This document shows, one piece after another, positions 12,919-26,490 of a DNA stretch of 64,000 bases. The position numbers were made by a program, and so were the translations under genes. A model generated the notes under the pieces. That model was not told where the DNA came from, did no database searches, and worked only from the letters and a program-made list of their open reading frames with translations. Position 1 is the stretch's first letter. Each line of letters opens with the position of its first letter. Source of the stretch: Marinitoga aeolica (GTDB lineage Bacteria; Thermotogota; Thermotogae; Petrotogales; Petrotogaceae); the NCBI RefSeq assembly GCF_029910535.1, contig NZ_CP069362.1:1550001-1614000 (forward strand), written 5' to 3'.

Positions 12919-13596
12919 ATGAAGCATAATGAAAGTGTTTTTATAGAAAAAATAAAAGTAAAGAAGATATTATCTATTGGCGATTTGGTTGATGTAGAGC
13001 TACCGCATCAACATATTATTGGTAATAGTCGAGTGATATTATTAAATTTTTTAGGTAAATATGCACAGATACTGCCTCCTATATATAGAAATTCAAGGAT
13101 TAAATTATATACAGGAGAAAAATTGAATATACGAGTATATGAAAATGGTTCAAATATAATGATAAAATCCAGTGTGTTGAAAATTGAAAAAGAAAAAATA
13201 ACAGTTTTTTTACCTAAAATTGCTTTTAAAATTCAGAAAAGATTATTTTTTAGAATACCAATAATAAGAGAAGGAATATTAATAGATAATGAAGAAAATA
13301 AGTTAATTCCTTTTGAAACAAGGGATTTTAGTGCTGGTGGAATGCAGATTGTTGTAAAAGAATATCTGGCTGAGGAAAGAGAATATATTATAAAGACTTT
13401 AATTATGGATGATAATTTAATATTAAAAGAAATAAATACAAGGGCTGTTAGACTTGTAGGTGAAAATATATATGGTGAAAAAATATATGGAATGAAATTT
13501 ATGAATATAGATTATAAAACAGAGAAGAATATTGTTCGATATGCTAACTTATATTCTATAAAAGCAAAACATGGAATTTTGGGGGATGGAAAATGA
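12919..13596 (+). CDS. PilZ-domain c-di-GMP receptor, YcgR-like
   Basis: A 225-residue protein with an N-terminal YcgR-type beta-barrel domain and a C-terminal PilZ domain. Both c-di-GMP contact motifs are present: RxxxR in QKRLFFR (R108, R112) and DxSxxG in DFSAGG (D136, S138, G141). Such proteins bind c-di-GMP and alter flagellar or exopolysaccharide machinery. ATG at 12919 has AAAGGAG seven bases upstream; the longer TTG-started frame from 12889 has none. It is the first gene of the Pel-like operon and overlaps pelD by four bases, which suggests a receptor acting on exopolysaccharide synthesis. Confidence 0.85.
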   Translation: MKHNESVFIEKIKVKKILSIGDLVDVELPHQHIIGNSRVILLNFLGKYAQILPPIYRNSRIKLYTGEKLNIRVYENGSNIMIKSSVLKIEKEKITVFLPKIAFKIQKRLFFRIPIIREGILIDNEENKLIPFETRDFSAGGMQIVVKEYLAEEREYIIKTLIMDDNLILKEINTRAVRLVGENIYGEKIYGMKFMNIDYKTEKNIVRYANLYSIKAKHGILGDGK

Positions 13597-14810
13597 AAAG
13601 CACTAAAATTTATGCAGTTTTTGAAATAATAATAATTTTAACTTTGTTGTTTATTTTGGATTTAAATAGAAAATATTTTGGTTATATTTATATTTATCCA
13701 AATCCATATTTTATATTTTCGATTTTTATTGCAATAAGATATGGTATTAATTTTTCTTTGTTTACAGGCGGATTGAGTGCTATTTATATTTTTTTATCAA
13801 TATTTTTTAATGTTAAAGAGGATTTTTTTAAAATAATAATTTCGTGGGATGTTTTAAAAGTTCCTCTTTTTATTTTTGCTTTTGGATTTATTATAGGATT
13901 TTTTAGGGATATGTATGTTCAAAAAATAGATTCTCAGAAAGAAGAAATAGATTTATTAAAAGAAAAAATAAAATCTCTTGAAGAAGATATACGAAAGTAT
14001 AAAAACATTACGGATGACCTTGAACATAAATTGGTTTTGGAAAAACAAGGGGTGTCACTATTAGTTGAAAAACTAAAAGATATTGAATATAATAGTTCAG
14101 AAGATATATTTAATGAAACAATAGATCTTATATCAGAATTTATTTATGCTAAAACAGTATCTATTTATACTTTAGGAAAAAATAATTTTTTAAGATTAAA
14201 AGTGAGAAAAGGTTCACAGTTTTTGCCTAATTCATTTCCTATGGAAAAATCAATTGTTATTTCAATGGCTAAAGAATTTGGAAGTGCAAATGCTAATGTT
14301 TTATATTTAACAGAGATGGAATATGATTTTGAATATGAACCTGCTATGGCAGTAAGTGTAAAACACAATGAAGAAATATTGGGTTTTATAATAGTTGAAA
14401 TAATAGATCCGGAAAAAATAAATAAGAATACTGAAATTTATTTGAAAATTTTAGCAAATTGGTTAAGCACGCTTCTTTTAGCATCGAGTGATTTAACAGA
14501 AAATGAGAATATGATTTTTAAACCAATGGAAAAATTTAATAGTATATTAGATAAGATAGAGGAGAGAAAGGAAAGATTTAAAATTCCATATTCAGTGATA
14601 ATTGCTGAATATAATAATGATATTTCAATAGATATATTAAAATCATTTATAAGAGACACTGATTTTCTTTTTTTAGATGAAGAAAAAAAAGAATTTAGAA
14701 TTATTTTAACTTCCTGTTCTGAAAAAGGTTTAAAAAGAGTTTTAAACATTATTTCTAAATATTCTGGAATAAAGATTTTGGAGGCATATTCGAAAAATGA
14801 AAATGAATAA
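13593..14810 (+). CDS. pelD: PelD-like c-di-GMP receptor of exopolysaccharide synthase
   Basis: The 405-residue architecture matches PelD: about four N-terminal membrane helices (residues 7-106), a coiled coil (about 110-152), a GAF-like domain (about 155-295) and a C-terminal degenerate GGDEF domain. In the last, RDTD (R354-D357) matches the RxxD inhibitory site that binds c-di-GMP in Pseudomonas PelD, while the active-site motif is reduced to EKKEF, so no cyclase activity is expected. In known Pel systems PelD gates the PelF/PelG synthase on the inner membrane. Here it overlaps the PilZ gene and the pelE-like gene. The call rests on architecture, the RxxD site and adjacency to pelF/pelG. 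Confidence 0.82.
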   Translation: MKSTKIYAVFEIIIILTLLFILDLNRKYFGYIYIYPNPYFIFSIFIAIRYGINFSLFTGGLSAIYIFLSIFFNVKEDFFKIIISWDVLKVPLFIFAFGFIIGFFRDMYVQKIDSQKEEIDLLKEKIKSLEEDIRKYKNITDDLEHKLVLEKQGVSLLVEKLKDIEYNSSEDIFNETIDLISEFIYAKTVSIYTLGKNNFLRLKVRKGSQFLPNSFPMEKSIVISMAKEFGSANANVLYLTEMEYDFEYEPAMAVSVKHNEEILGFIIVEIIDPEKINKNTEIYLKILANWLSTLLLASSDLTENENMIFKPMEKFNSILDKIEERKERFKIPYSVIIAEYNNDISIDILKSFIRDTDFLFLDEEKKEFRIILTSCSEKGLKRVLNIISKYSGIKILEAYSKNENE

Positions 14811-15741
14811 ATATATTTATTTTTTTACAATATTAGCTTTAATATTAGGAATAATTGATATATTTTTATTTATATTTCATCATTATAATCTAGGATTTAT
14901 TGTATTGGCGATATATTATCTTATTTTATTTATATTTAATTATTTAAGTGAGAAAAAACTTTTTACTGCTTTGATAAAAACTTTTTTAGCTTTTATCTTA
15001 TTTCCTTTTTATCCTTTGATTTTATTATTACAATATAAAAGGATTGAACCATTATATAAACCTATTAATTTTTATGAACATAAATTGGTAGATACAAGTA
15101 ATATCGGATTTTCTTCTGTTGATTTAGCTCCGTTTAATATCATATTAAAATATGGTGACCCCAATCAACGAAAATATGTTGTAAGACTGGTATATAATTC
15201 TATAAAAGAAGAAAAAATAGACTTTATTGGAGGTATAAATTTAATCAGGAATGCTATTAAAGAGGATACACACCCAGATGTTATTTTATATGCTTCTGAT
15301 GCTTTGACAAATTTGGAAAATCATTTAATTAGCAAGATTTCTCACTATATGGGAAATTTAAATACACTAGAAGATTATATTAATTATGCTAAATATTCAT
15401 ATTATTATGCTAATTCAGGATTTCTTGCAGGGGAACATAAATTTGAGGTCTTATGGCAAAGTTCTATAATTTTACGAACAGCAATAGAAATGTTTCCGGA
15501 AAGTCCATTGTTAATTGTTTATACGTTAAGAATACTTGAGTCTTTGAATGAATATGAAAATTTAGAGGAAGTGCTAAATGAAAAAATCAATAAAATTAGA
15601 GCGCAGGAATTATATGAATATGCTATTATGTATTATATAAAAAGAAGAAAGCCAAAAAGTGTTCAAAAATTGGTTTCTGAATTTATAGATCTGGGGTTTT
15701 CTCCGGAGCATGAGTCGATAAAATTTTTATTGGGGGGATAA
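14797..15741 (+). CDS. pelE: PelE-like membrane/helical-repeat protein
   Basis: The 314-residue protein has N-terminal membrane helices (about residues 6-28, 32-50 and 58-80) and a soluble region of helical repeats rich in paired helices (about 150-310), resembling the TPR region of PelE. Known PelE proteins have this layout and lie directly after pelD, as here. The gene overlaps pelD by 14 bases; GGAGG is 13 bases before the ATG. Sequence identity to PelE cannot be judged by eye, so the assignment is mainly by layout and order. Confidence 0.6.
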   Translation: MKMNKYIYFFTILALILGIIDIFLFIFHHYNLGFIVLAIYYLILFIFNYLSEKKLFTALIKTFLAFILFPFYPLILLLQYKRIEPLYKPINFYEHKLVDTSNIGFSSVDLAPFNIILKYGDPNQRKYVVRLVYNSIKEEKIDFIGGINLIRNAIKEDTHPDVILYASDALTNLENHLISKISHYMGNLNTLEDYINYAKYSYYYANSGFLAGEHKFEVLWQSSIILRTAIEMFPESPLLIVYTLRILESLNEYENLEEVLNEKINKIRAQELYEYAIMYYIKRRKPKSVQKLVSEFIDLGFSPEHESIKFLLGG

Positions 15742-15742
15742 A

Positions 15743-16330
15743 ATGAAATTCAAAATAAAATTGTTTCAGCCATATTATTTATTATTTGCATTGACTTTAT
15801 TATTAATAGCTGTGATTATAATTGTCAATTATAATAGTAATTATAGTTTTGATCCAGATTATGTAAAAAATCTTCCTTGGAACAAAAGGTCTTCATATAT
15901 AAGACAAAAAGAAATTTTAACAAAATTAGAACATAAAAAAAGCTATACAGATAAAGATTTACTCTTAATAAATCAGTTAATTTCTATTTCATTTGCTTTA
16001 GAAGATATAGATACGCTTGAATATGCTCAAAAACTAAAATATGAATATTTGATAACTTCTTTTAAGCAACTATCTAATGAAAAAAAATTTGAAGATTTTA
16101 TAGATAAATTAAATTTTAAAAATAAATTGGGCTTGTATTTGCTTTCTGATAATGAAAAGTTTTTAATTAAATTAATAAGAAAGTCATCTAGAACTGAGAA
16201 GCTGCAGATATTGTTTATATTAAATCTTTTTTATCCAGAAAAGTTGAAAAAAGTATCTTATTTATTTAGTAAAAAAGATATAGAAGATGTAAGGTTAATA
16301 GTTGAATATCTTAAATTAAAAGGTGAATAA
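15743..16330 (+). CDS. Unknown single-pass membrane protein in the Pel-like operon
   Basis: A 195-residue protein with one N-terminal membrane helix (about residues 10-29) and a charged, all-helical remainder. No family recognised. It starts one base after the pelE-like stop and its end reaches into the ribosome binding site of pelF, so it is translated with the synthase genes. It is not part of the pelDEA-F-G set known from other bacteria and may be a split-off second half of PelE or a lineage-specific accessory subunit. Confidence 0.65.
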   Translation: MKFKIKLFQPYYLLFALTLLLIAVIIIVNYNSNYSFDPDYVKNLPWNKRSSYIRQKEILTKLEHKKSYTDKDLLLINQLISISFALEDIDTLEYAQKLKYEYLITSFKQLSNEKKFEDFIDKLNFKNKLGLYLLSDNEKFLIKLIRKSSRTEKLQILFILNLFYPEKLKKVSYLFSKKDIEDVRLIVEYLKLKGE

Positions 16331-16331
16331 T

Positions 16332-17738
16332 ATGAGAGTGGGAATAATATTTGAAGGGACATATCCATATGTTACTGGAGGAGTTTCAAGTTGGGGAAAT
16401 ACTTTGATAAAAAACATGAAAGATGTTGAATTTTGTATAATTCAGATTGGTGATGTACCAAAAATAAGAATACCCAAATATACCTTTTCTGAAAATGTAG
16501 TAGATTATTTTGAATATTTTTTATTTGCTAAATATAATTTTTCAAAAAAGCAAAAAATAACAAAAGATTTTGGTAAGAAATTACAGGATATTTTAAAATA
16601 TCCATTTGATGAGAAAGTTATGTCAGATAAATTATATAAACTTTTTCATGATTATTTTAATTATGATTTTACGAGTATTTTAAAATCAGAAATTTATTGG
16701 GAAGTTATGCTTGAGTTTTATAAAGCATATATACCGTATGAAAATTTTACCAATTATTTTTGGACGCTACAGTCGATGCTTTTGCCTTTTTTAAATTCAA
16801 TGACAGTAGATTTTCCAAAATGCGATATTTATCATACAATAACTACTGGTTATGCGGGTATATCTGCTATTATGAATGGAATAAAAAATAATACGCCTGT
16901 AATATTGACGGAGCATGGTATATACCATAGGGAAAGACAATTAGAAGTATTAAAAGCTGGATGGATAAAAGATGAATATAGATTGGCATGGATTAAGCTA
17001 TTTAATACAATTAGTTCTTTGGTATATAAAGGATCAAAAAAAATTACAACATTGTTTTCTAAAAATCAAATATTTGAAAAAGAATTATGTGACGATGAAT
17101 CTAAAATGTATGTAATACCAAATGGAATTGATTATGAAAAATTTTCAAAATTAGAATATAGAAAAGAAAAAGAACCTTATGTAGTTGGATTAGTTGGAAG
17201 AGTTGTTGAAATTAAGGATATAAAAACAGCAATTAAAGCTGCAAAAATGGTGAAAGAGAAAATACCGCATTTTAAATTGCTTATAATAGGGCCTACAGAT
17301 GAAGAACCAGAATATTATAAAGAATGTCAGGAAATGATAAATATATTCAGACTTGAGGATACAATAGAATTTACTGGAAAAGTAAATGTTTTGGAGTATT
17401 ATCCAAAACTAAACGTGTTGTTATTATCCAGCGTTAGTGAAGGGCAACCACTTGTGATTCTAGAAGCATTTGCAGTGGGGATTCCAGTGGTAACTACTGA
17501 TGTTGGAGCATGTTCAGAAATGATACATGGTTCAAAAGAAGATATTATAGGAGAAGCGGGAATAGTTGTAAAACCTAAAGATTTTGTTGGATTAGCAAAT
17601 GGTATGATAAAATTATATGAGGATGATGAGTTTAGATATAATGCATCAAAAATAGCTAAAATTCGTGTGGAAAAAAGATATAAACTTGAACAGATGATAA
17701 AAAATTATCGTGACTTGTATCTTTCGGTGGTGAAATAA
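16332..17738 (+). CDS. pelF: PelF-type glycosyltransferase (GT4)
   Basis: Cytosolic glycosyltransferase that polymerises the Pel polysaccharide from nucleotide sugars. The 468-residue protein begins IIFEGTYPYVTGGVSSW, the signature N-terminus of PelF, contains TEHGIYHRER, and has the GT4 EX7E motif EGQPLVILE (E370, E378) in the C-terminal Rossmann domain. ATG at 16332 has GGTG six bases upstream; a GTG at 16323 in the same frame is embedded in that site. Pairing with PelG directly downstream is diagnostic of Pel loci. Confidence 0.92.
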   Translation: MRVGIIFEGTYPYVTGGVSSWGNTLIKNMKDVEFCIIQIGDVPKIRIPKYTFSENVVDYFEYFLFAKYNFSKKQKITKDFGKKLQDILKYPFDEKVMSDKLYKLFHDYFNYDFTSILKSEIYWEVMLEFYKAYIPYENFTNYFWTLQSMLLPFLNSMTVDFPKCDIYHTITTGYAGISAIMNGIKNNTPVILTEHGIYHRERQLEVLKAGWIKDEYRLAWIKLFNTISSLVYKGSKKITTLFSKNQIFEKELCDDESKMYVIPNGIDYEKFSKLEYRKEKEPYVVGLVGRVVEIKDIKTAIKAAKMVKEKIPHFKLLIIGPTDEEPEYYKECQEMINIFRLEDTIEFTGKVNVLEYYPKLNVLLLSSVSEGQPLVILEAFAVGIPVVTTDVGACSEMIHGSKEDIIGEAGIVVKPKDFVGLANGMIKLYEDDEFRYNASKIAKIRVEKRYKLEQMIKNYRDLYLSVVK

Positions 17739-17739
17739 A

Positions 17740-19158
17740 TTGGCTGGAGTTGGTTTTAGATTAAATAAAATGTTCCATAAAGGTGGTGTATCTACAGATT
17801 TATTAGCTATTGCCTATTCTGTGGTGGTTTCATCTGGCCCATGGATAATTACAACGATCTCTTTATGGATAATATTAAATTTTTTTAAAATTACAAATCT
17901 TTATTTTAATATAGCTATAGTATATTCTTTTGTATTTTCTATAATAATTTCAGGATTATTTATTATGTTTGAATCAAGGCGAATCTCTGATCTGATTTAT
18001 ATGAAACAGTATAAAAAAATTATACCAGAAGTGATGGGAATGCTGGTATATGCTATTTTATTTACAATTCTATTTTTACTTGTGTTTTTTCTATTCAACA
18101 AACATGAATTATGGTTTGTTTTATCCTTTGCCTATTTGTTCATTTCTTTATTAACATTGTGGATAATTTCTATAGCTTCTGTTTCTACAGATGCAGTAAA
18201 TTGGTATATAATGGCATATTTGATTATGGGGTTTTTCTCTATAATACTTTCTAATTATTTTGGATCTGAGAATAATCCATTGGGATATATTTTGGGATAT
18301 GCGTTTGGGGTTAATATTGGGACGTTCGTTCATTATATGATAACTTTAATTTATTTTGGAACTGAAATGAATATAACTTTCGAATGGATGAAAGAGATAA
18401 AGAAGTATTGGCAAAATATTTTTATAGGATTTACATATTATTTGGCATTGTGGATTGATGATTTTATCACATGGCATTCTAAGAATTTTGGAGAAATTCC
18501 ATTAAAAGGTTTTCATTTTTCTTTTATTTATGATAGTCCGATGTTCTTAGCTTACCTGACAATAATTCCTACAGCTACAATGTTTATACTGGTTTTGGAA
18601 ACAAGATTTTATAAAACATATAAATTATTTTATGATTCACTTATAGAAGGTTATAACTATTCCGAAATTCTTATTAGACAAAAAAATATGGAAAAGGAAT
18701 TAAAATTCGATATAAATTTAACAGTAAGAGTTCAGATAATTATTACCCTTATATTATTTTTTTTGAATGAAATGAATTTATTACCTTTTGTGTCAGAAAT
18801 GTTTAAACCAGTTTTAAGACTTGGATTGATTGGTGCTATGATGAATTCGTTTTACTTAATGATTATGTTGTTACTTTTATATTTTGATTTTAGAAATATA
18901 GCTTTATATTTGAATATAGGCGTTTTTTTGATAAATTTTCTTTTAAGTATAATATTTATTAATAAATTTGGGTATTATACATTAGGAGCAAGTTATTCCT
19001 TTGCATTTGCAATAGGGACTTTTATAGGCTATAAAATATTAATTAAAAATGTTCAAAACTTAATTAAAATAGAATATTATAGACAAAAATTAGCAGTTGA
19101 AGAAGGTTTTTACATTAAATATAGTGATATAAAAAAAATAATGGGGGAAGAGAGATGA
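17740..19158 (+). CDS. pelG: PelG-type membrane transporter of the Pel synthase
   Basis: A 472-residue polytopic membrane protein with about 12 helices. The N-terminus MAGVGFRLNKMF and SSGPWIITTIS are typical of PelG, the MATE/MOP-like partner that with PelD, PelE and PelF forms the inner-membrane synthase complex. The start is TTG one base after the pelF stop, with GGTGGTGA upstream. Its end overlaps the next gene by four bases (ATGA). Identity is strong because of sequence and neighbour. Confidence 0.92.
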   Translation: MAGVGFRLNKMFHKGGVSTDLLAIAYSVVVSSGPWIITTISLWIILNFFKITNLYFNIAIVYSFVFSIIISGLFIMFESRRISDLIYMKQYKKIIPEVMGMLVYAILFTILFLLVFFLFNKHELWFVLSFAYLFISLLTLWIISIASVSTDAVNWYIMAYLIMGFFSIILSNYFGSENNPLGYILGYAFGVNIGTFVHYMITLIYFGTEMNITFEWMKEIKKYWQNIFIGFTYYLALWIDDFITWHSKNFGEIPLKGFHFSFIYDSPMFLAYLTIIPTATMFILVLETRFYKTYKLFYDSLIEGYNYSEILIRQKNMEKELKFDINLTVRVQIIITLILFFLNEMNLLPFVSEMFKPVLRLGLIGAMMNSFYLMIMLLLLYFDFRNIALYLNIGVFLINFLLSIIFINKFGYYTLGASYSFAFAIGTFIGYKILIKNVQNLIKIEYYRQKLAVEEGFYIKYSDIKKIMGEER

Positions 19159-21461
19159 AAAAAAATATTTTGATTTTCTTGATATTTCTTATGACAATAA
19201 CTTTATTTGGGCAAAAGGATTTATTATTATTGTATAAAAAATCAGAACAATATGGAGAATTTATGTTTAAATACCATATAATACCTATTTTAGAAAAATA
19301 TCATATAAATTATGAACTAAAAAATATAGAAGATATGAACTATTATAGGATTGATAATAGTAAATATTTTGGTGTTATTACATGGTATTATTCTCCAAAT
19401 TTAAAAAATTCACATTTATATTTAAGGCAATTATCGAGTTTTGTAGAAAATGGTGGTTTTTTCTTTTTCTTTAATAATTTAGGTGTAACATCAGACATTA
19501 GAGAAATAAATAATTTATTAAATAAAATCGGAATTCATTATATGTATGGATATCGTGAATTAAAAAATTACACAGTTAATTATAAAAAAGAGTATTTTTT
19601 AACTAGTCCACCAACTTCATTAAAAGAACCTGTTGAAAGATATGTTGTTTTTGGTAATAATGATGAAATTTTATTATCCTATAAAGCAAATAATAACATG
19701 GAATATCCTATGATAATATTATCAAAAAATGGTGGTGGTGCAATATTTGGAAGTTTTATAAATGAGAAAGGTGATATTATTTTAAATATTGAGAAAATAA
19801 TATCAAGTTTAATTAATCAAAAAGTTGGTATTGAGGATAAGGTTTTAATTATAAAAACAAAGTTTGATAATATGCAATATTTAAAATCACAGCAAGAATT
19901 GTATAAAATATTTGAATATGCAAAGATAAATTATGAATCTATTAATGTAAATGAATTTTATAACCTGTCTTTAATAGATTTAATCCCATATAAATATATT
20001 ATATGGGATACAGATGCCGAATATGTTGAAACTCGAACAATAAAAAATTTTATTGAAAATGGAGGAACTTTTATATTTACAACACTCCTTTCCAATACAC
20101 CATGGAAAGAAGGAATAAAAAATGAATCTATTAGTATATCTAAAATAATATTTGTAAAAGATTTATTTCCTATTGGGAATATGAAAAATGGAGAAAGCAT
20201 CATTGAAAGATATTTTAATATCTCTTTTAATATAGACCTTTCTAAGGAAAATATAGTTTTAGCTTATTTAGGTGGTAATGATATAAAAGTTCCAGCAATA
20301 TGGTATAAAAAAGTAGATTCTGGATATATGGGGTATATATATCCGGGAATTATTGTGAAAGAATTAAGAGGGTTAATTTTACAATCAATTTTAGAAATGC
20401 AGGATGTTTCAATTGCTGGTATATTAAATTCATTCATTTTTTATATAGATGATTTTCCTTTACCTTCATATAATGTAAAAAAAGCAAAAGTTGATAATAA
20501 AATGATTACAGATGATGAATATTATTACAATATATGGTGGCCATCTATAAAAGTATTTGCTGAAGAATATAATATAAAATATACGTTTGTTACGCCATTG
20601 AGTTATAATGGTTCAAGTACTCCGCCTTTTGAATTTACAGAGTTTTTTGTCAGTAAGAACAATAATCCTTATAAAGCTATGAGGGAAATTGATAAATCCG
20701 ATTTTGAGCTTGGACTTCATGGGTATAATCATAATTCCTTAACTAAGGATAGATGGGCCAATCCTGAAAATATTATATCAAGTTTGAATGCGGCGAAAAG
20801 ATTTATAAGTGAAATACTTGGGCACCCTGTAGTTATAAGCAGTTATGTGGCACCAAACAATATTATAGATGAATTTGGAGCAAAAAATTTATTAAAAGCA
20901 ATACCAACAATAAAAACAATAGGTACATCATATGAAGGGAAAAATGAATTTTCTGAATATAGAATCACAAATAATTTTGTGGTGGTTATTCCACGATCGA
21001 CATATGGTTATTATCCTTTAAAAAGAATATATTTATCAACTATAAATACCTTGGCGAATTTTGGAACATTTCAACATTTTATACATCCAGATGATTTATT
21101 TGCAACAGATAGAAATCCTGAGAATAGATCATGGGATGAAATGTATAATAATTTGAGAACATTTTATGATACAATAAAACAGAAGTTCCCATGGTTAAGA
21201 AATCAAACGGCTTCTGAAGCGTATCCATATTTTTTTGATTATTTAATTCAGACTGTAAAATATTATTGGAAAAATAACGGATTAAATGTGATATTACCTG
21301 ATTCAACTATATTTCCAAAATATTTTATGATAAAATCAAAAAAGATAATAAAAAAAGTTAATGGTGGAAAAATAGTTAAATACTATAGAGAAAATAGATT
21401 ATATATAATTGAAATGAATAAAAGCATTATGCACATTGATTTTATGGATGTGAGAAAATGA
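19155..21461 (+). CDS. Secreted PelA-like DUF2194 polysaccharide deacetylase
   Basis: A 768-residue protein with a signal peptide (MKKNILIFLIFLMTITLFGQ). The first 400 residues hold two similar alpha/beta modules with ENGG(F/T)F motifs, like the amidotransferase-like part of DUF2194 proteins. The deacetylase domain follows: the acidic pair in YIDDFPLP (D432, D433), the metal-binding HxxxH in LGLHGYNHNS (H522, H526) and a late FQHFIHPDD. In Pel systems deacetylation of the N-acetylgalactosamine-rich polymer is needed for its function; PelA carries such a domain. Here the glycosidase domain of PelA is absent but a GH114 protein is encoded at 23710-24639. The gene overlaps pelG and the next gene by ATGA. 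Confidence 0.8.
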   Translation: MKKNILIFLIFLMTITLFGQKDLLLLYKKSEQYGEFMFKYHIIPILEKYHINYELKNIEDMNYYRIDNSKYFGVITWYYSPNLKNSHLYLRQLSSFVENGGFFFFFNNLGVTSDIREINNLLNKIGIHYMYGYRELKNYTVNYKKEYFLTSPPTSLKEPVERYVVFGNNDEILLSYKANNNMEYPMIILSKNGGGAIFGSFINEKGDIILNIEKIISSLINQKVGIEDKVLIIKTKFDNMQYLKSQQELYKIFEYAKINYESINVNEFYNLSLIDLIPYKYIIWDTDAEYVETRTIKNFIENGGTFIFTTLLSNTPWKEGIKNESISISKIIFVKDLFPIGNMKNGESIIERYFNISFNIDLSKENIVLAYLGGNDIKVPAIWYKKVDSGYMGYIYPGIIVKELRGLILQSILEMQDVSIAGILNSFIFYIDDFPLPSYNVKKAKVDNKMITDDEYYYNIWWPSIKVFAEEYNIKYTFVTPLSYNGSSTPPFEFTEFFVSKNNNPYKAMREIDKSDFELGLHGYNHNSLTKDRWANPENIISSLNAAKRFISEILGHPVVISSYVAPNNIIDEFGAKNLLKAIPTIKTIGTSYEGKNEFSEYRITNNFVVVIPRSTYGYYPLKRIYLSTINTLANFGTFQHFIHPDDLFATDRNPENRSWDEMYNNLRTFYDTIKQKFPWLRNQTASEAYPYFFDYLIQTVKYYWKNNGLNVILPDSTIFPKYFMIKSKKIIKKVNGGKIVKYYRENRLYIIEMNKSIMHIDFMDVRK

Positions 21462-22003
21462 AAGATGGGATAAGGAAAAAGATATTAGAAAAAAGATTAA
21501 ATTTGGAGGAAAAGTTGTATAATGAATATAATTTTTTAATTATAAATAAAGTTTTTAATTTTATTAAAGATTTTGAATTCCAAAGCATAGCTATGTATTA
21601 TCCATTTAGAAAAGAAGTAAATCTTTTGAATTTGGTTGAATTATTGAAAAACAGAGATATATTATTTCCAAAAATAAAAGGTAAAAGTATGCAATTTATA
21701 AAAGTTAGAAATTTTGATGAATTTAAAAAAGGAAAATTTGGTATAATGGAACCAATAGGTGAATATTATGATAAAGAAATAGATATATTTTTGGTACCTG
21801 GAGTAGCTTTTGATAAAAAACTATATAGGTTGGGGTATGGTGGAGGATATTATGATAGATATTTTTCAAATCATAAAAAAGGTTTTTTAATAGGAGTGGC
21901 TTTTGATTTTCAAATTTTAAACGAACTTCCAATTTTTGAACATGACATAAAAATGGATGTTATAATTACAGAAAAAAGAATTTTGAAGGGTGAAAAAATA
22001 TGA
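21458..22003 (+). CDS. 5-formyltetrahydrofolate cyclo-ligase family protein
   Basis: A 181-residue protein of the cyclo-ligase family, which converts 5-formyl-THF to 5,10-methenyl-THF with ATP. Visible motifs are the basic N-terminus IRKKILEKR, LVPGVAFD, the phosphate loop YGGGYYDRYF near residue 130 and the C-terminal DVIITEKRIL. Length is normal. It overlaps the deacetylase gene and the next gene by four bases, so it is translationally coupled although its folate role has no clear link to exopolysaccharide. Confidence 0.92.
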   Translation: MKDGIRKKILEKRLNLEEKLYNEYNFLIINKVFNFIKDFEFQSIAMYYPFRKEVNLLNLVELLKNRDILFPKIKGKSMQFIKVRNFDEFKKGKFGIMEPIGEYYDKEIDIFLVPGVAFDKKLYRLGYGGGYYDRYFSNHKKGFLIGVAFDFQILNELPIFEHDIKMDVIITEKRILKGEKI

Positions 22004-22782
22004 AAATAGGATTAGTTCAATTTAGGCCAGAACTTTTTCAAGTAAAAGAAAACGTTGAAAAAGGAATAAAATTAATAGAGAATAAAGATGCAGAATTATT
22101 TGTTTTCCCTGAATTAGCTTTTACAGGATATACTTTTAATACAAAGAATGAAGTTGAATGGGTTTCCGAAGACAAAAATGGTTTTTCGGTGAAAATGTTC
22201 AAAGATTTTGCAATTTCTAAGAAAACCAATATTGTTTTTGGATTTGTTGAAAAGTATGAAAATAAATATTATAATTCTTCTATACTTATTAAATATGATG
22301 GAAGCTATAAAATATATAGAAAAACACATTTGTTTTATGAAGAAAAATTATTTTTTGAGAAAGGAGATACCGGTTTTTGGGTTGAAGATGTTAATGGTGT
22401 TAAGATTGGTTTAGCTATTTGTTTTGATTGGTTTTTTCCGGAATCATTTAGAACGCTTGCATTAAAAGGAGCACAAATTATTGCACATAGTGCAAATTTG
22501 GTAATGCCTTATTGCCAGGAAGCAAATAAAATACGATCTCTTGAAAACAAAGTATTTATAGTAACCTCAAATAGATGGGGAGAAGAGGTAAATCTCTTAA
22601 ACTCAAATATCTTTACAGGTATGAGTCAGATTACCAATCCGAAAGGTGAGGTAATTATAAGATTTCCTCAAAAAGGGGATAAAGTAAAAGTTGTTGATAT
22701 AAATCCCGATGAAGCTCTTAATAAAAATATTAATAAATATAATAATATATTTGAAGATAGAATAGAAAAATTTTATAAATAG
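22000..22782 (+). CDS. Carbon-nitrogen hydrolase (nitrilase superfamily)
   Basis: A 260-residue nitrilase-fold amidase. The catalytic triad is visible: Glu38 in FPELAFTGY, Lys108 in RKTHLF and Cys141 in AICFDWFFPE. Members cleave amide C-N bonds; omega-amidases and deaminated-glutathione amidases have this size. The substrate cannot be chosen from sequence. It overlaps the cyclo-ligase gene and is followed after 11 bases by the sugar kinase. Confidence 0.9.
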   Translation: MKIGLVQFRPELFQVKENVEKGIKLIENKDAELFVFPELAFTGYTFNTKNEVEWVSEDKNGFSVKMFKDFAISKKTNIVFGFVEKYENKYYNSSILIKYDGSYKIYRKTHLFYEEKLFFEKGDTGFWVEDVNGVKIGLAICFDWFFPESFRTLALKGAQIIAHSANLVMPYCQEANKIRSLENKVFIVTSNRWGEEVNLLNSNIFTGMSQITNPKGEVIIRFPQKGDKVKVVDINPDEALNKNINKYNNIFEDRIEKFYK

Positions 22783-22793
22783 GAGAGGAGAGA

Positions 22794-23699
22794 ATGTTTT
22801 TATCAATAGGAGAAGTATTAATAGACATGATAACAGAATCTGATTCATTATATAATGCAACCGTTTTCCAAAAATTTTTTGGCGGGTCACCAGCAAATAT
22901 TGCTATAAATGTGGCTAGGCAAGGAATTGAAAGCCATTTGTTATCAACTATAGGAAAAGATCCTTTTGGCAAGTTTATAGAAGATTTCTTATTAAAGAAT
23001 AATGTAAAAATAGACTATTTAGTGGAAAGAGAAGATATATATACTGATATTGTTTTTGTCAATAAATCAAAAAAAACACCTGAATTTAAGGCTTATAGAA
23101 ATGCATCATTAAAATTAGAAATTCCTGATAATTTAGATCTGGAAAAAATTAGAATTATCCATATATCATCATGGGCAGTATCTGAAACGAAACAATTTGA
23201 AAAGATATATGAATTGGTAAAAGAAGCAAAGAAAAAAAATATTTTAATAGGATTTGATCCAAATTATAGAAAAATATTATGGAATAATAAATATAGCATA
23301 ATTGATGTTTTAAAAGTGTTAGGGCCTTATATAGATATATCTAAACCATCATTTGATGATGCAGAAAATATTTTTGGAAAAGACACTATTAAAAATTATA
23401 TAAAATATTTTGAAGAAAATGGAATAAAGAATATTATATTTACACTAGGGAAAGATGGTGCTTTGATACATAATAAAAAATATGAAGAAAATATTCCAAC
23501 TTTTGCTACAAAAGTTATTGATGTAACAGGTGCTGGGGATGCTGTTTGGTCTGGAATATATACAGGATTGTTGAATGATCTTAATATTATTGAATCAACA
23601 AAATTAGGACTGGCTTTTGCAGCGGAAAAATTAAAATATATTGGTGCAATTACACCTATCGAACATTGGGAAATATTAAAAGATAAATATGAAATATAA
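22794..23699 (+). CDS. PfkB-family carbohydrate kinase, fructokinase-like
   Basis: A 301-residue ribokinase-fold kinase. It has the N-terminal GEVLIDM, the sugar-binding GGSPANIA near residue 28 and the catalytic anion hole DVTGAGDAVW (base D249). Together with the sucrose-phosphate-synthase-like gene two genes downstream, phosphorylation of fructose or another ketose is likely. The start has GGAGAGGAG upstream. It overlaps or abuts the GH114 gene. Family sure, substrate inferred. Confidence 0.88.
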   Translation: MFLSIGEVLIDMITESDSLYNATVFQKFFGGSPANIAINVARQGIESHLLSTIGKDPFGKFIEDFLLKNNVKIDYLVEREDIYTDIVFVNKSKKTPEFKAYRNASLKLEIPDNLDLEKIRIIHISSWAVSETKQFEKIYELVKEAKKKNILIGFDPNYRKILWNNKYSIIDVLKVLGPYIDISKPSFDDAENIFGKDTIKNYIKYFEENGIKNIIFTLGKDGALIHNKKYEENIPTFATKVIDVTGAGDAVWSGIYTGLLNDLNIIESTKLGLAFAAEKLKYIGAITPIEHWEILKDKYEI

Positions 23700-23709
23700 G
23701 GTGAAAATT

Positions 23710-24639
23710 ATGTCAAAAGAATTAATTATTATAACATCAGTATTTATATTACTTATATCTTTCTTTTTTATACCTAAAAAGGAAATTATTGAAGTTCCTA
23801 TGATCTATCAAATAAATGGCCCTAATATTGATAATATAATTAGCAATTATAAACCCAAATTTGCAATTTTAGATTATTCTAAAGATGGAACAGAGGAAAA
23901 AAAATTTACGCATGATGAAATAAATAAATTAAAAAATATGGATATAATTCCTTTAGCATATTTAAGTATAGGCGAAGCTGAAGATTATAGATATTATTGG
24001 AAAGATTCATGGAATGAAAATCCACCATCATGGCTAGATGGTGAAAATCCCAGGTGGCCTGGAAATTATAAAGTGAAATATTGGTATAATGAATGGAAAA
24101 ATGTAATTTTTGATTATTTAGATAAGATTATTGATCAAGGATTTATGGGAGTATATTTAGATTTGATTGATTCTTATAAATTCTGGGCAGAAAATGGATA
24201 TGATATTGAATCAACAGCTTCTGAAATGATTAAGTTTGTAATTGAAATTGCTGAATATGCTAGAAAAAAGAATCCTGTATTTTTAGTAATTCCTCAAAAT
24301 GCAGAAGATATTTTAAAATATGATAAGAATAATCAATATTTATATTCCATATCAGGTATAGGAGTAGAAAGTTTGTTTTATAAAAAAACTAGAAAACGTT
24401 CTGAAAAATATGTAAATAACAGACTTAAATACATATTAAAAATTAAAAATGTTGGAAAGTTTGTGCTTGTTACTGATTATGTGTATGATCAAAAAAATCC
24501 CAGCGAAAAGATAATTCTTGACTTTATAAATTTATGTGAGAAATATGGTTTTTATGGTTATCCCGCGAATGTAAACCAAAAATTAAATGATATATCTGGT
24601 GCATTAAAATATTATAAAGTAAAAGAGGTGAAAAAATGA
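23710..24639 (+). CDS. GH114-type (TM1410-like) glycosidase, membrane-anchored or secreted
   Basis: A 309-residue protein with an N-terminal hydrophobic anchor (residues 5-21) and a TIM-barrel of the TM1410/GH114 family. Family motifs are YLSIGEAEDYRYYW (E89) and GVYLDLIDSYKFW (D151, D154), which hold the likely acidic catalytic residues. Characterised GH114 enzymes cleave alpha-1,4-galactosamine polymers, the chemistry also of the related hydrolase domain in PelA. Its place in the Pel-like operon suggests trimming or release of the polymer (inference). ATG at 23710 has AAGGTG six bases upstream. Its stop overlaps the next ATG. Confidence 0.85.
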   Translation: MSKELIIITSVFILLISFFFIPKKEIIEVPMIYQINGPNIDNIISNYKPKFAILDYSKDGTEEKKFTHDEINKLKNMDIIPLAYLSIGEAEDYRYYWKDSWNENPPSWLDGENPRWPGNYKVKYWYNEWKNVIFDYLDKIIDQGFMGVYLDLIDSYKFWAENGYDIESTASEMIKFVIEIAEYARKKNPVFLVIPQNAEDILKYDKNNQYLYSISGIGVESLFYKKTRKRSEKYVNNRLKYILKIKNVGKFVLVTDYVYDQKNPSEKIILDFINLCEKYGFYGYPANVNQKLNDISGALKYYKVKEVKK

Positions 24640-26099
24640 GAATAGCATTTTTTAATCCCCAGGGAAATTTTGATAAAAACAGTTCTAGATTAACAGAACA
24701 TCCTGATTTTGGAGGTCAGTTAATATATGTAAGAGAGGTTGCTATGGAATTATCAAAATTGGGAATTGAAGTGGATATTTTTACAAGAAAAATAATTGAT
24801 GAGAATTGGCCAGAGTTTAAAGAAACTTTTGATTATTATGAAGGATATAATAATTTGAGAATTATAAGAATACCTTTTGGCGGAAATAAATTTTTGAGAA
24901 AAGAGTTATTATGGCCACATTTAAAAGAATTTGCAGAAGGCATTTTAAAATATTATGATTCTATAGGTAAAATGCCAGATTTTGTAACAACACATTATGG
25001 AGATGGGGGGATTACTGGAGCGATATTTGAAGATATTACTCATATCCCATTTTCTTTCACAGCACATTCTTTAGGAGCGCAAAAAATGGATAAATTAGGA
25101 GTAAATAAATTTAATTTTGATGGATATGATGAAGAATATAATTTTTCTATAAGAATAAATGCAGAAAGAGTTTCCATGAATCGTTCGGCATTTAATATAG
25201 TAAGTACCAATCTTGAAAGATTCGAGCAGTATGGGCATCAACTGTATAATGGCGCTATAGATATAAATGATGACTCTAAGTTTAAAGTTATTCCACCTGG
25301 AGTAAATGTTAAAACATTTTCATCAGAAAATAAGGAATTAGATAATGATTTTTGGAATGAAATAGAAAAATATTTAATTAGAGATATAGAAAATAGAGAG
25401 AAGCAATATATAGTTGTTTCCAGTAGAGTGGATGAAAAAAAGAATCATCTTGGTGTGGTTAGAGCATATGCAAGGTCTAAAGAACTTCAAAAAATGGCGA
25501 ATCTGGTTATTTTTGTTAGAGGTTTAAAGAATGGTTTTAAGGATATGGACAAATTATCTGAAAAAGAGCAAAAAATAATAGGAGAAATAAAAAGAATAGT
25601 TGAAGATCATCAATTATATGGTAAAGTATCATTATTTGATGTGCCTGGACAAGAGGAATTAGCCAGCGCTTATAGATATTTTGTTAGAAAAAAATCTGTT
25701 TTTGTTTTGCCTGCTTTTTATGAACCATTTGGATTAGCTCCTATTGAGGCAGCAGCAGTGGGGCTTGCTGTTGTTGCAACTAAAAATGGCGGTCCTATGG
25801 AATCATTTGATAAAGGTAAATATGGGGTATTGATAGATCCATTTGATATAAAAGATATAGAAAAAGGTATTTTAGATGGATTGAAAAATTTTGATAAATA
25901 TTCTGAATTAGGTAAAAAGAGAGTTTTAGAAAATTATACATGGGAAATTACTGCTAAAAGATATCTTAAAAGTATAGAAGAATATTTAAAAAATCCTATT
26001 AGAAAAGAGAATTATTTGAAGATACCTGGATTCTTTTTTAATGAAAAAAATGAAGTAGATAAAAGCTTGATATTAGAATATTTGAAAAGTACAAATTAA
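24636..26099 (+). CDS. Sucrose-phosphate-synthase-like glycosyltransferase (GT4)
   Basis: A 487-residue GT4 enzyme. The N-terminus FFNPQGNF followed by TEHPDFGGQLIYV is typical of bacterial sucrose-phosphate synthases, which join a nucleotide-glucose and fructose 6-phosphate. Later motifs are the donor region SSRVDEKKNH and EPFGLAPIE (EX7E). Mannosylfructose-phosphate synthase is an alternative. The upstream PfkB kinase could supply the sugar phosphate. No sucrose-phosphatase is seen nearby. It overlaps the GH114 gene by ATGA and ends the long operon at a terminator. Confidence 0.85.
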   Translation: MRIAFFNPQGNFDKNSSRLTEHPDFGGQLIYVREVAMELSKLGIEVDIFTRKIIDENWPEFKETFDYYEGYNNLRIIRIPFGGNKFLRKELLWPHLKEFAEGILKYYDSIGKMPDFVTTHYGDGGITGAIFEDITHIPFSFTAHSLGAQKMDKLGVNKFNFDGYDEEYNFSIRINAERVSMNRSAFNIVSTNLERFEQYGHQLYNGAIDINDDSKFKVIPPGVNVKTFSSENKELDNDFWNEIEKYLIRDIENREKQYIVVSSRVDEKKNHLGVVRAYARSKELQKMANLVIFVRGLKNGFKDMDKLSEKEQKIIGEIKRIVEDHQLYGKVSLFDVPGQEELASAYRYFVRKKSVFVLPAFYEPFGLAPIEAAAVGLAVVATKNGGPMESFDKGKYGVLIDPFDIKDIEKGILDGLKNFDKYSELGKKRVLENYTWEITAKRYLKSIEEYLKNPIRKENYLKIPGFFFNEKNEVDKSLILEYLKSTN

Positions 26100-26124
26100 A
26101 AGGAGCCGGAAGGCTCCTTTTAAT
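26095..26124. terminator. Bidirectional terminator between the long operon and ssrA
   Basis: A 13-bp stem (ATTAAAAGGAGCC arm) capped by a GGAA tetraloop; T-rich on both strands. It overlaps the stop codon of the glycosyltransferase and ends six bases from the tmRNA 3' end. Confidence 0.9.
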
Positions 26125-26129
26125 TATGA

Positions 26130-26490
26130 TGGTGGAGACGGCGGGAGTCGAACCCGCGTCCGAAAGTAAAGTAAGCCGGACATCTCCGAGCGCAGCCTGT
26201 GTTTTAAATTTTGCCTTTTCTTCTCCCACAGGCAGGATAAAAAAAGGCTATCTCCCTGAGATTTCCCCAAAAACCCGGGAGAAAGGTTTTTAGGTAAGGG
26301 TCATAATTATGACGTCCTATTTAACCATTTGACCCAGAACGGTTAATAGGACGGCTGCTAATTAAATTAAGCAGCTAAAGCGTAATTTTCTTCGGCAACT
26401 CTCTTTTTTGACCGATTATTTAACGTGGTAACAGTCTTCCACGGCTCGCTTTCCGACTTACTCTACCCCCGTCGAAACCGTTTCGTCCCC
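26130..26490 (-). ncRNA. ssrA: tmRNA (one-piece)
   Basis: Rescues stalled ribosomes and tags their nascent chains. The 361-nt RNA starts GGGGACGAAACGG and ends CGUCUCCACCA with encoded CCA; these form the seven-base-pair tRNA-like acceptor stem with one G-U pair. The T-arm GGGTTCGACTCCC is present at the 3' end. The reading frame after the resume codon GCC encodes AEENYALAA and then TAA (near 26365-26394), ending in the LAA recognised by proteases such as ClpXP and Lon. Pseudoknot-type hairpins fill the rest. Confidence 0.97.

Follow-up and report, generated by a model that had tools for sequence, protein, structure and literature searches.

A putative Pel-type exopolysaccharide operon with a candidate split PelA in Marinitoga (Thermotogota)

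Introduction

Pel, a sticky biofilm polysaccharide, is a partly deacetylated polymer of alpha-1,4-linked N-acetylgalactosamine, familiar chiefly from Pseudomonas and Bacillus. The nearest known counterparts of the locus reported here are the pelABCDEFG set of Pseudomonas aeruginosa and the pelDEA_DAFG operon of Bacillus cereus ATCC 10987 (PMC7112168, PMC13254593); in B. cereus PelD, the RxxD motif is required for cyclic di-GMP (c-di-GMP) binding and for biofilm (PMC7112168). In the Thermotogae, Pel operons received a one-sentence mention in a hidden Markov model (HMM) survey of 2020 (PMC7112194), and Thermotoga maritima forms exopolysaccharide in pure and in mixed culture (PMC3065215). The TM1410 family was recently made CAZy family GH191: one member, Env-GH191, cuts Pel, while TmGH191 (TM1410 itself) has a solved structure, is inactive on fungal galactosaminogalactan (GAG) and has an open substrate (PMC12054363). 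That study treats TmGH191 as an enzyme without a known substrate and does not mention its gene context. Here we describe a pel locus in a stretch of 64,000 nucleotides from the thermophilic, sheathed bacterium Marinitoga aeolica (the whole of the DNA analysed, hereafter the window), for which an earlier note made from the letters of the sequence had proposed a Pel-type synthase locus.

Results

The locus consists of seven collinear open reading frames (ORFs) at 12919-21461, running from a PilZ gene to a DUF2194 gene, all on the + strand, with neighbours that overlap or are spaced by at most a few bases. All seven same-direction genes of the earlier note were recovered at the positions it gave, and its attribution of the DNA to the Thermotogota was likewise correct, the host being a member of the genus Marinitoga with a genome of 2.44 Mb in a single contig. 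The pel genes follow the order D-E-X-F-G-A_DA, which was found again in related genomes; therefore, the arrangement is not a matter of chance. The window thus holds a minimal pelDEFG core, namely PelF, PelG, a PelD with an RxxD motif, and a PelE encoded between pelD and pelF. We consider it quite probable that this is a Thermotogota-lineage pel operon that makes a Pel-type polymer by the mechanism proposed below. The gene identities, the catalytic and I-site residues and the conserved synteny are supported by the sequence evidence that follows.

PelF, a GT4 glycosyltransferase of 471 aa (16323..17738, + strand), scored 377 bits against NF038011, the NCBIfam PelF equivalog with a cut-off of 100 bits, and 231 bits against DUF3492. 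Its residues R293, K298, E373 and E381 are invariant among 16 aligned Thermotogota PelF sequences. PelG, a MOP-type polysaccharide transporter of 472 aa (17740..19158, + strand), scored 383 bits against PF16933 (Pfam PelG; cut-off 29 bits), with the whole model covered. As assignments by curated profiles, both are secure, and the HMMs place the two proteins in these families, as the earlier note had expected. In a relative of T. maritima (G093, locus L051), two PelG and two PelF genes lie near one another.

In the PelF tree, 29 Thermotogota rows fall on one side of a fully supported branch and 34 rows of other phyla on the other, which makes the Thermotogota PelF a separate, long-branched lineage. 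Because the rows of this tree left out Bacillota, any relation to Gram-positive loci is argued here from the CE26-type deacetylase and gene content, not from the tree.

PelD (13593..14810, + strand; 405 aa) was recognized from Foldseek, profile and motif evidence as a protein with N-terminal membrane helices, a coiled coil, a GAF domain and a degenerate GGDEF domain with an intact RxxD (R354, D357). Sequence-only matches to the PDB were weak: phmmer with the 405-aa protein alone found no PelD there, and the PelD profile reached five P. aeruginosa PelD sequences at E 0.4-0.7, amid coiled-coil noise. The Pfam PelD GGDEF model likewise gave no match to the protein. We therefore used fold comparison, and with a predicted model of mean predicted local distance difference test (pLDDT) 84, Foldseek ranks 1-7 in the PDB were all P. 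aeruginosa PelD chains (E 9e-8 to 8e-7), which provides the structural match that the PelD reading called for. The GAF_3 match is weak in this protein alone (E = 0.0013) and was found in 16 of 20 homologues, at best at 1e-8. The R354-x-x-D357 motif in the C-terminal region is invariant in all 20 aligned Thermotogota homologues and aligns with the RxxD of several PelD proteins from other phyla. Many pel loci from other phyla also have, in the PelD position, a gene that a Thermotogota PelD profile matched, with E down to 9e-27. In several Myxococcota-/Bdellovibrionota-type pel loci, a response-regulator-like gene of ~120 aa lies directly upstream of PelD.

The PelE-like protein (14797..15741, + strand; 314 aa) matched no Pfam family. 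Its model (pLDDT 84; predicted TM-score, pTM, 0.61) consists of membrane helices followed by a helical solenoid, and a Thermotogota PelE profile gave collinear matches to PelE-position ORFs of pel loci in other phyla, down to 1e-13; the helical-repeat fold and the profile matches agree with a PelE-like role. Two Marinitoga genomes carry a tandem pair of PelE genes (L035:13611-15495 and L037:5495-7385). Between PelE and PelF lies X195 (15743..16330, + strand), a bitopic membrane protein with one membrane helix by hydropathy, in line with the membrane protein of unassigned role that had been noticed here before. It is present in Marinitoga, Thermosipho-like and Petrotogaceae pel loci. That X195 might be a split piece of PelE was rejected (hhalign probability 0.4%). 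Four Myxococcota-/Bdellovibrionota-type pel loci (L082, L088, L107, L121) have a gene of ~630-690 aa between PelE and PelF; this ~650-aa gene was considered as PelA and rejected for L082, L088 and L121, where it encodes HEAT-repeat proteins.

The last gene of the core encodes a DUF2194 protein of 768 aa (19155..21461, + strand; PF09960, 601 bits), a predicted CE26-type deacetylase. It aligns over ~460 residues (E = 2.5e-43) with 9ZAU, the B. cereus PelA_DA that is the founding member of CE26, and keeps all base, acid, metal and substrate residues reported for that enzyme: D432, D433, H522, H526, P567, N569, R614, H644, D646 and D647. The CE26 catalytic set of Asp-Asp, HxxxH, Arg and His-x-Asp-Asp is thus present, and all of these residues except P567 are invariant across ten aligned Thermotogota homologues. 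On the basis of the alignment and the conserved catalytic residues, the protein can be called a PelA_DA homologue, which sharpens the earlier identification as a DUF2194 deacetylase. It carries an additional N-terminal domain of ~200 residues; as a possible duplicate of the adjacent carbohydrate-binding domain, it gave a short match to the latter at a low probability of 9%.

No single PelA protein with both hydrolase and deacetylase domains was found in the locus, where two genes, DUF2194 and GH191, encode these functions by prediction. The GH191 gene (23689..24639, + strand) sits three genes downstream of DUF2194 and encodes an N-terminally anchored glycoside hydrolase of the TM1410 family (TIGR01370, 313 bits; Glyco_hydro_114; 9EUX, E = 4e-77), in which the Asp/Glu catalytic pair (D158 and E227) and the loop tryptophan W123 are kept. 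In several genera of Thermotogota, with T. maritima among the cases, a GH191 gene borders DUF2194-PelG, so that the locus appears to hold a split PelA, made up of a deacetylase and a probable hydrolase. GH191 is accordingly a candidate for the PelA-type hydrolase of the locus. The boundary of 12919-21461 drawn by the earlier note therefore holds for the core genes and falls short in extent, since the functional set reaches GH191 at 23689-24639.

In Marinitoga, three housekeeping-like genes separate GH191 from DUF2194, and GH191 might for that reason be carried along in a run of housekeeping genes as a passenger that acts on another substrate, such as dietary or neighbour polymers. Across 103 Thermotogota genomes, 34 have both PelG and GH191, six have PelG only and four have GH191 only; the four, together with the 14 of the 34 in which the two genes are unlinked, would fit a passenger. 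The two genes co-occur by genus (both 13, PelG only 4, GH191 only 3; Fisher p = 2e-4) and by genome (p = 1e-16, relatedness ignored), and lie within ~6 kb of each other in 20 genomes of 7 genera. Against a passenger, GH191 directly adjoins DUF2194 in g20, g29, g32 and g35, in differing orientations. The series PelD-PelE-X-PelF-PelG-DUF2194-GH191 is uninterrupted in genus g29 (L047, L048) and in a Thermosipho metagenome-assembled genome (L057), and in G090 (L049), which carries a gene identical to the T. maritima TM1410 structure entry, GH191 stands back to back with DUF2194-PelG-PelD. Outside the phylum, GH191-profile matches directly follow PelG in L121 and L107, so that such a match stands next to PelG in Bdellovibrionota too, and a Fusobacteriota locus has in a row an annotated polygalactosaminidase, a GAF protein, DUF2194, a hypothetical protein, pelF and pelG. 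We regard the passenger explanation as quite improbable and keep GH191 as the candidate hydrolase.

The same enzymes bear on the identity of the product. A pel-derived machine could make a different polymer, of another hexosamine or a mixed sugar, and so be Pel-like in its parts and not in its product. The separate, long-branched PelF lineage, the caution in PMC7112194 that a pel operon which has diverged may produce another polymer and the inactivity of TmGH191 on fungal GAG would all suit such a machine. Both the CE26-type deacetylase, with every one of the B. cereus residues, and a hydrolase family with one proven Pel-cutter point instead to a galactosamine polymer. A different polymer is thus unlikely, in our judgement, and a Pel-type product is preferred.

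At the head of the operon, the PilZ protein read in the earlier note (12919..13596, + strand) has a YcgR-type N-domain and was matched by PF07238 (37 bits) and PF12945 (PilZNR; 29 bits), and its c-di-GMP motifs RxxxR (KRLFFR) and DxSxxG (DFSAGG) can be read in the sequence. This is the sole PilZ match in the host genome, which has 15 GGDEF domains, and in all 7 Marinitoga genomes the only PilZ found heads the pel operon; coordinate comparison showed none beside PelG in 72 other PilZ-bearing Thermotogota genomes. That position would fit PilZ as the sole control, with PelD kept as a structural part that has lost c-di-GMP sensing. Such an arrangement is very unlikely, because all 20 homologues, some of them from genera with no PilZ gene at the pel locus, keep the PelD RxxD unchanged, and because the genus keeps the flagellar FlhA, so that PilZ may act on motility instead. 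Control through PelD is hence retained, and since FlhA is kept, a combined switch that lowers motility and raises polymer output is plausible, although unproven.

The earlier note had reported neither PelB nor PelC, and the genome searches bore this out. A PelC profile sensitive enough to reach Aquificota and Nitrospirota gave nothing credible in the 103 Thermotogota genomes. A PelB-barrel profile had no match in the host genome; this negative is the weaker of the two, as the profile is less sensitive and has no positive control within the phylum.

Several observations weigh against a Pel-type operon as proposed here. Support in Marinitoga is wholly computational, and the sugar specificity of PelF is not readable from its sequence. 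Whole-chain TM-scores of PelD against the PDB PelD chains are low, for which reason we make no claim on its domain arrangement, and the PelE-like model had no significant match in the PDB. The lack of activity of TmGH191 on fungal GAG (PMC12054363) counts here as well, as do the six PelG-bearing genomes without a GH191 match.

The closely spaced + strand gene run extends beyond the DUF2194 end at 21461 as far as 26099. Between the pel core and GH191 lie three co-oriented genes of housekeeping appearance (21458..23699, + strand), named by inspection as 5-formyltetrahydrofolate cyclo-ligase-like, carbon-nitrogen hydrolase-like and PfkB kinase-like; the PfkB gene is absent from L032. Behind GH191, the last gene of the run (24636-26099, + strand) encodes, by profile match, a GT4 protein whose N-domain is of the sucrose-synthase type; it may form a pair with the PfkB-like gene that serves sugar metabolism and has nothing to do with Pel. 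A terminator-like hairpin at 26094-26125 lies between the end of the run and a tmRNA gene (26130-26490, - strand; Rfam RF00023, 208 bits). Consensus promoter counts showed no excess (117 vs 112 in shuffles). In M. lauensis, a species of the same genus with 94% PelF identity, the PilZ, PelD, PfkB and GT4 genes are split (L033/L056), and so is FlhA at another place in that genome; these splits are probably sequencing indels in the assembly and not real gene loss.

Discussion

We propose the following mechanism, in which we infer what the polymer is, how it is regulated in vivo, what GH191 and PilZ do and by which route the toga is passed. On the cytoplasmic side, PelF would polymerise a nucleotide sugar, most likely UDP-N-acetylgalactosamine (UDP-GalNAc), which a galE equivalog in the host genome can in principle supply. 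PelD, PelE and PelG would form an inner-membrane complex that activates PelF and moves the chain across the membrane, and c-di-GMP at the PelD RxxD would turn synthesis on. The co-encoded PilZ protein probably provides a further c-di-GMP input and may act as a brake on motility. Once the chain is outside the membrane, the DUF2194/CE26 protein would take off acetyl groups and the anchored GH191 would cut it, the two together doing the work of both Pseudomonas PelA domains.

The Thermotogota have an outer sheath, the toga. As a tentative and rather doubtful extension, these sheathed bacteria may run Pel synthesis in the layout of outer-membrane-free bacteria, with the polymer either retained between cell and toga, where it would form a matrix, or leaving by a still unknown route, and with GH191 (TM1410) as a dedicated Pel hydrolase. 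This raises a concrete question: with neither PelB nor PelC found, does a Pel-type polymer remain within the Thermotogota sheath, or by what means does it get across? The pel locus family is in addition a defined genetic candidate for the T. maritima exopolysaccharide or for a second polymer, and the pel context offers the orphan enzyme TmGH191 a specific, testable substrate.

A Pel polymer in such a host had been called little explored. Pel operons in Thermotogae were already in print (PMC7112194), and the description holds insofar as that report is a one-sentence mention; B. cereus had likewise shown a layout that lacks PelB and PelC and has the hydrolase in a gene of its own. Within the literature searched, the new elements are the gene-by-gene pel anatomy in Thermotogota, the split of PelA into CE26 and GH191, the link between TM1410 and a pel locus, a PilZ gene that heads the Marinitoga operon, and X195.

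Compared with P. aeruginosa pelABCDEFG, the window shares the D-E-F-G core order, the PelD fold and the RxxD, and differs in that no PelB or PelC was found, PelA is in two proteins and the deacetylase is of CE26 type. With B. cereus ATCC 10987 it shares a PelD with RxxD, PelE, PelF, PelG, a CE26-type deacetylase, the lack of PelB and PelC, and a separate hydrolase gene. The deacetylase gene lies between pelE and pelF in B. cereus, whereas in Marinitoga it follows pelG and X195 takes that place; the Gram-positive resemblance suggested in the earlier note thus applies to PelB/PelC-free content, not to exact order (D-E-X-F-G-A_DA against D-E-A_DA-F-G in Bacillus). Unlike B. cereus, Marinitoga also has X195, a GH191-type hydrolase, a PilZ gene at the head and an outer sheath on the host. 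The Thermotogae operons of PMC7112194 belong to the same phylum, for which that report gives neither an anatomy nor a deacetylase, hydrolase or PilZ. The Fusobacteriota pel locus of Cetobacterium somerae (L139) shares the polygalactosaminidase, GAF protein, DUF2194, pelF and pelG in a different order, with the hydrolase first and the deacetylase upstream of pelF. TmGH191 (PMC12054363) is a close homologue of the GH191 in the window, with which it shares the D/E pair and the loop tryptophan.

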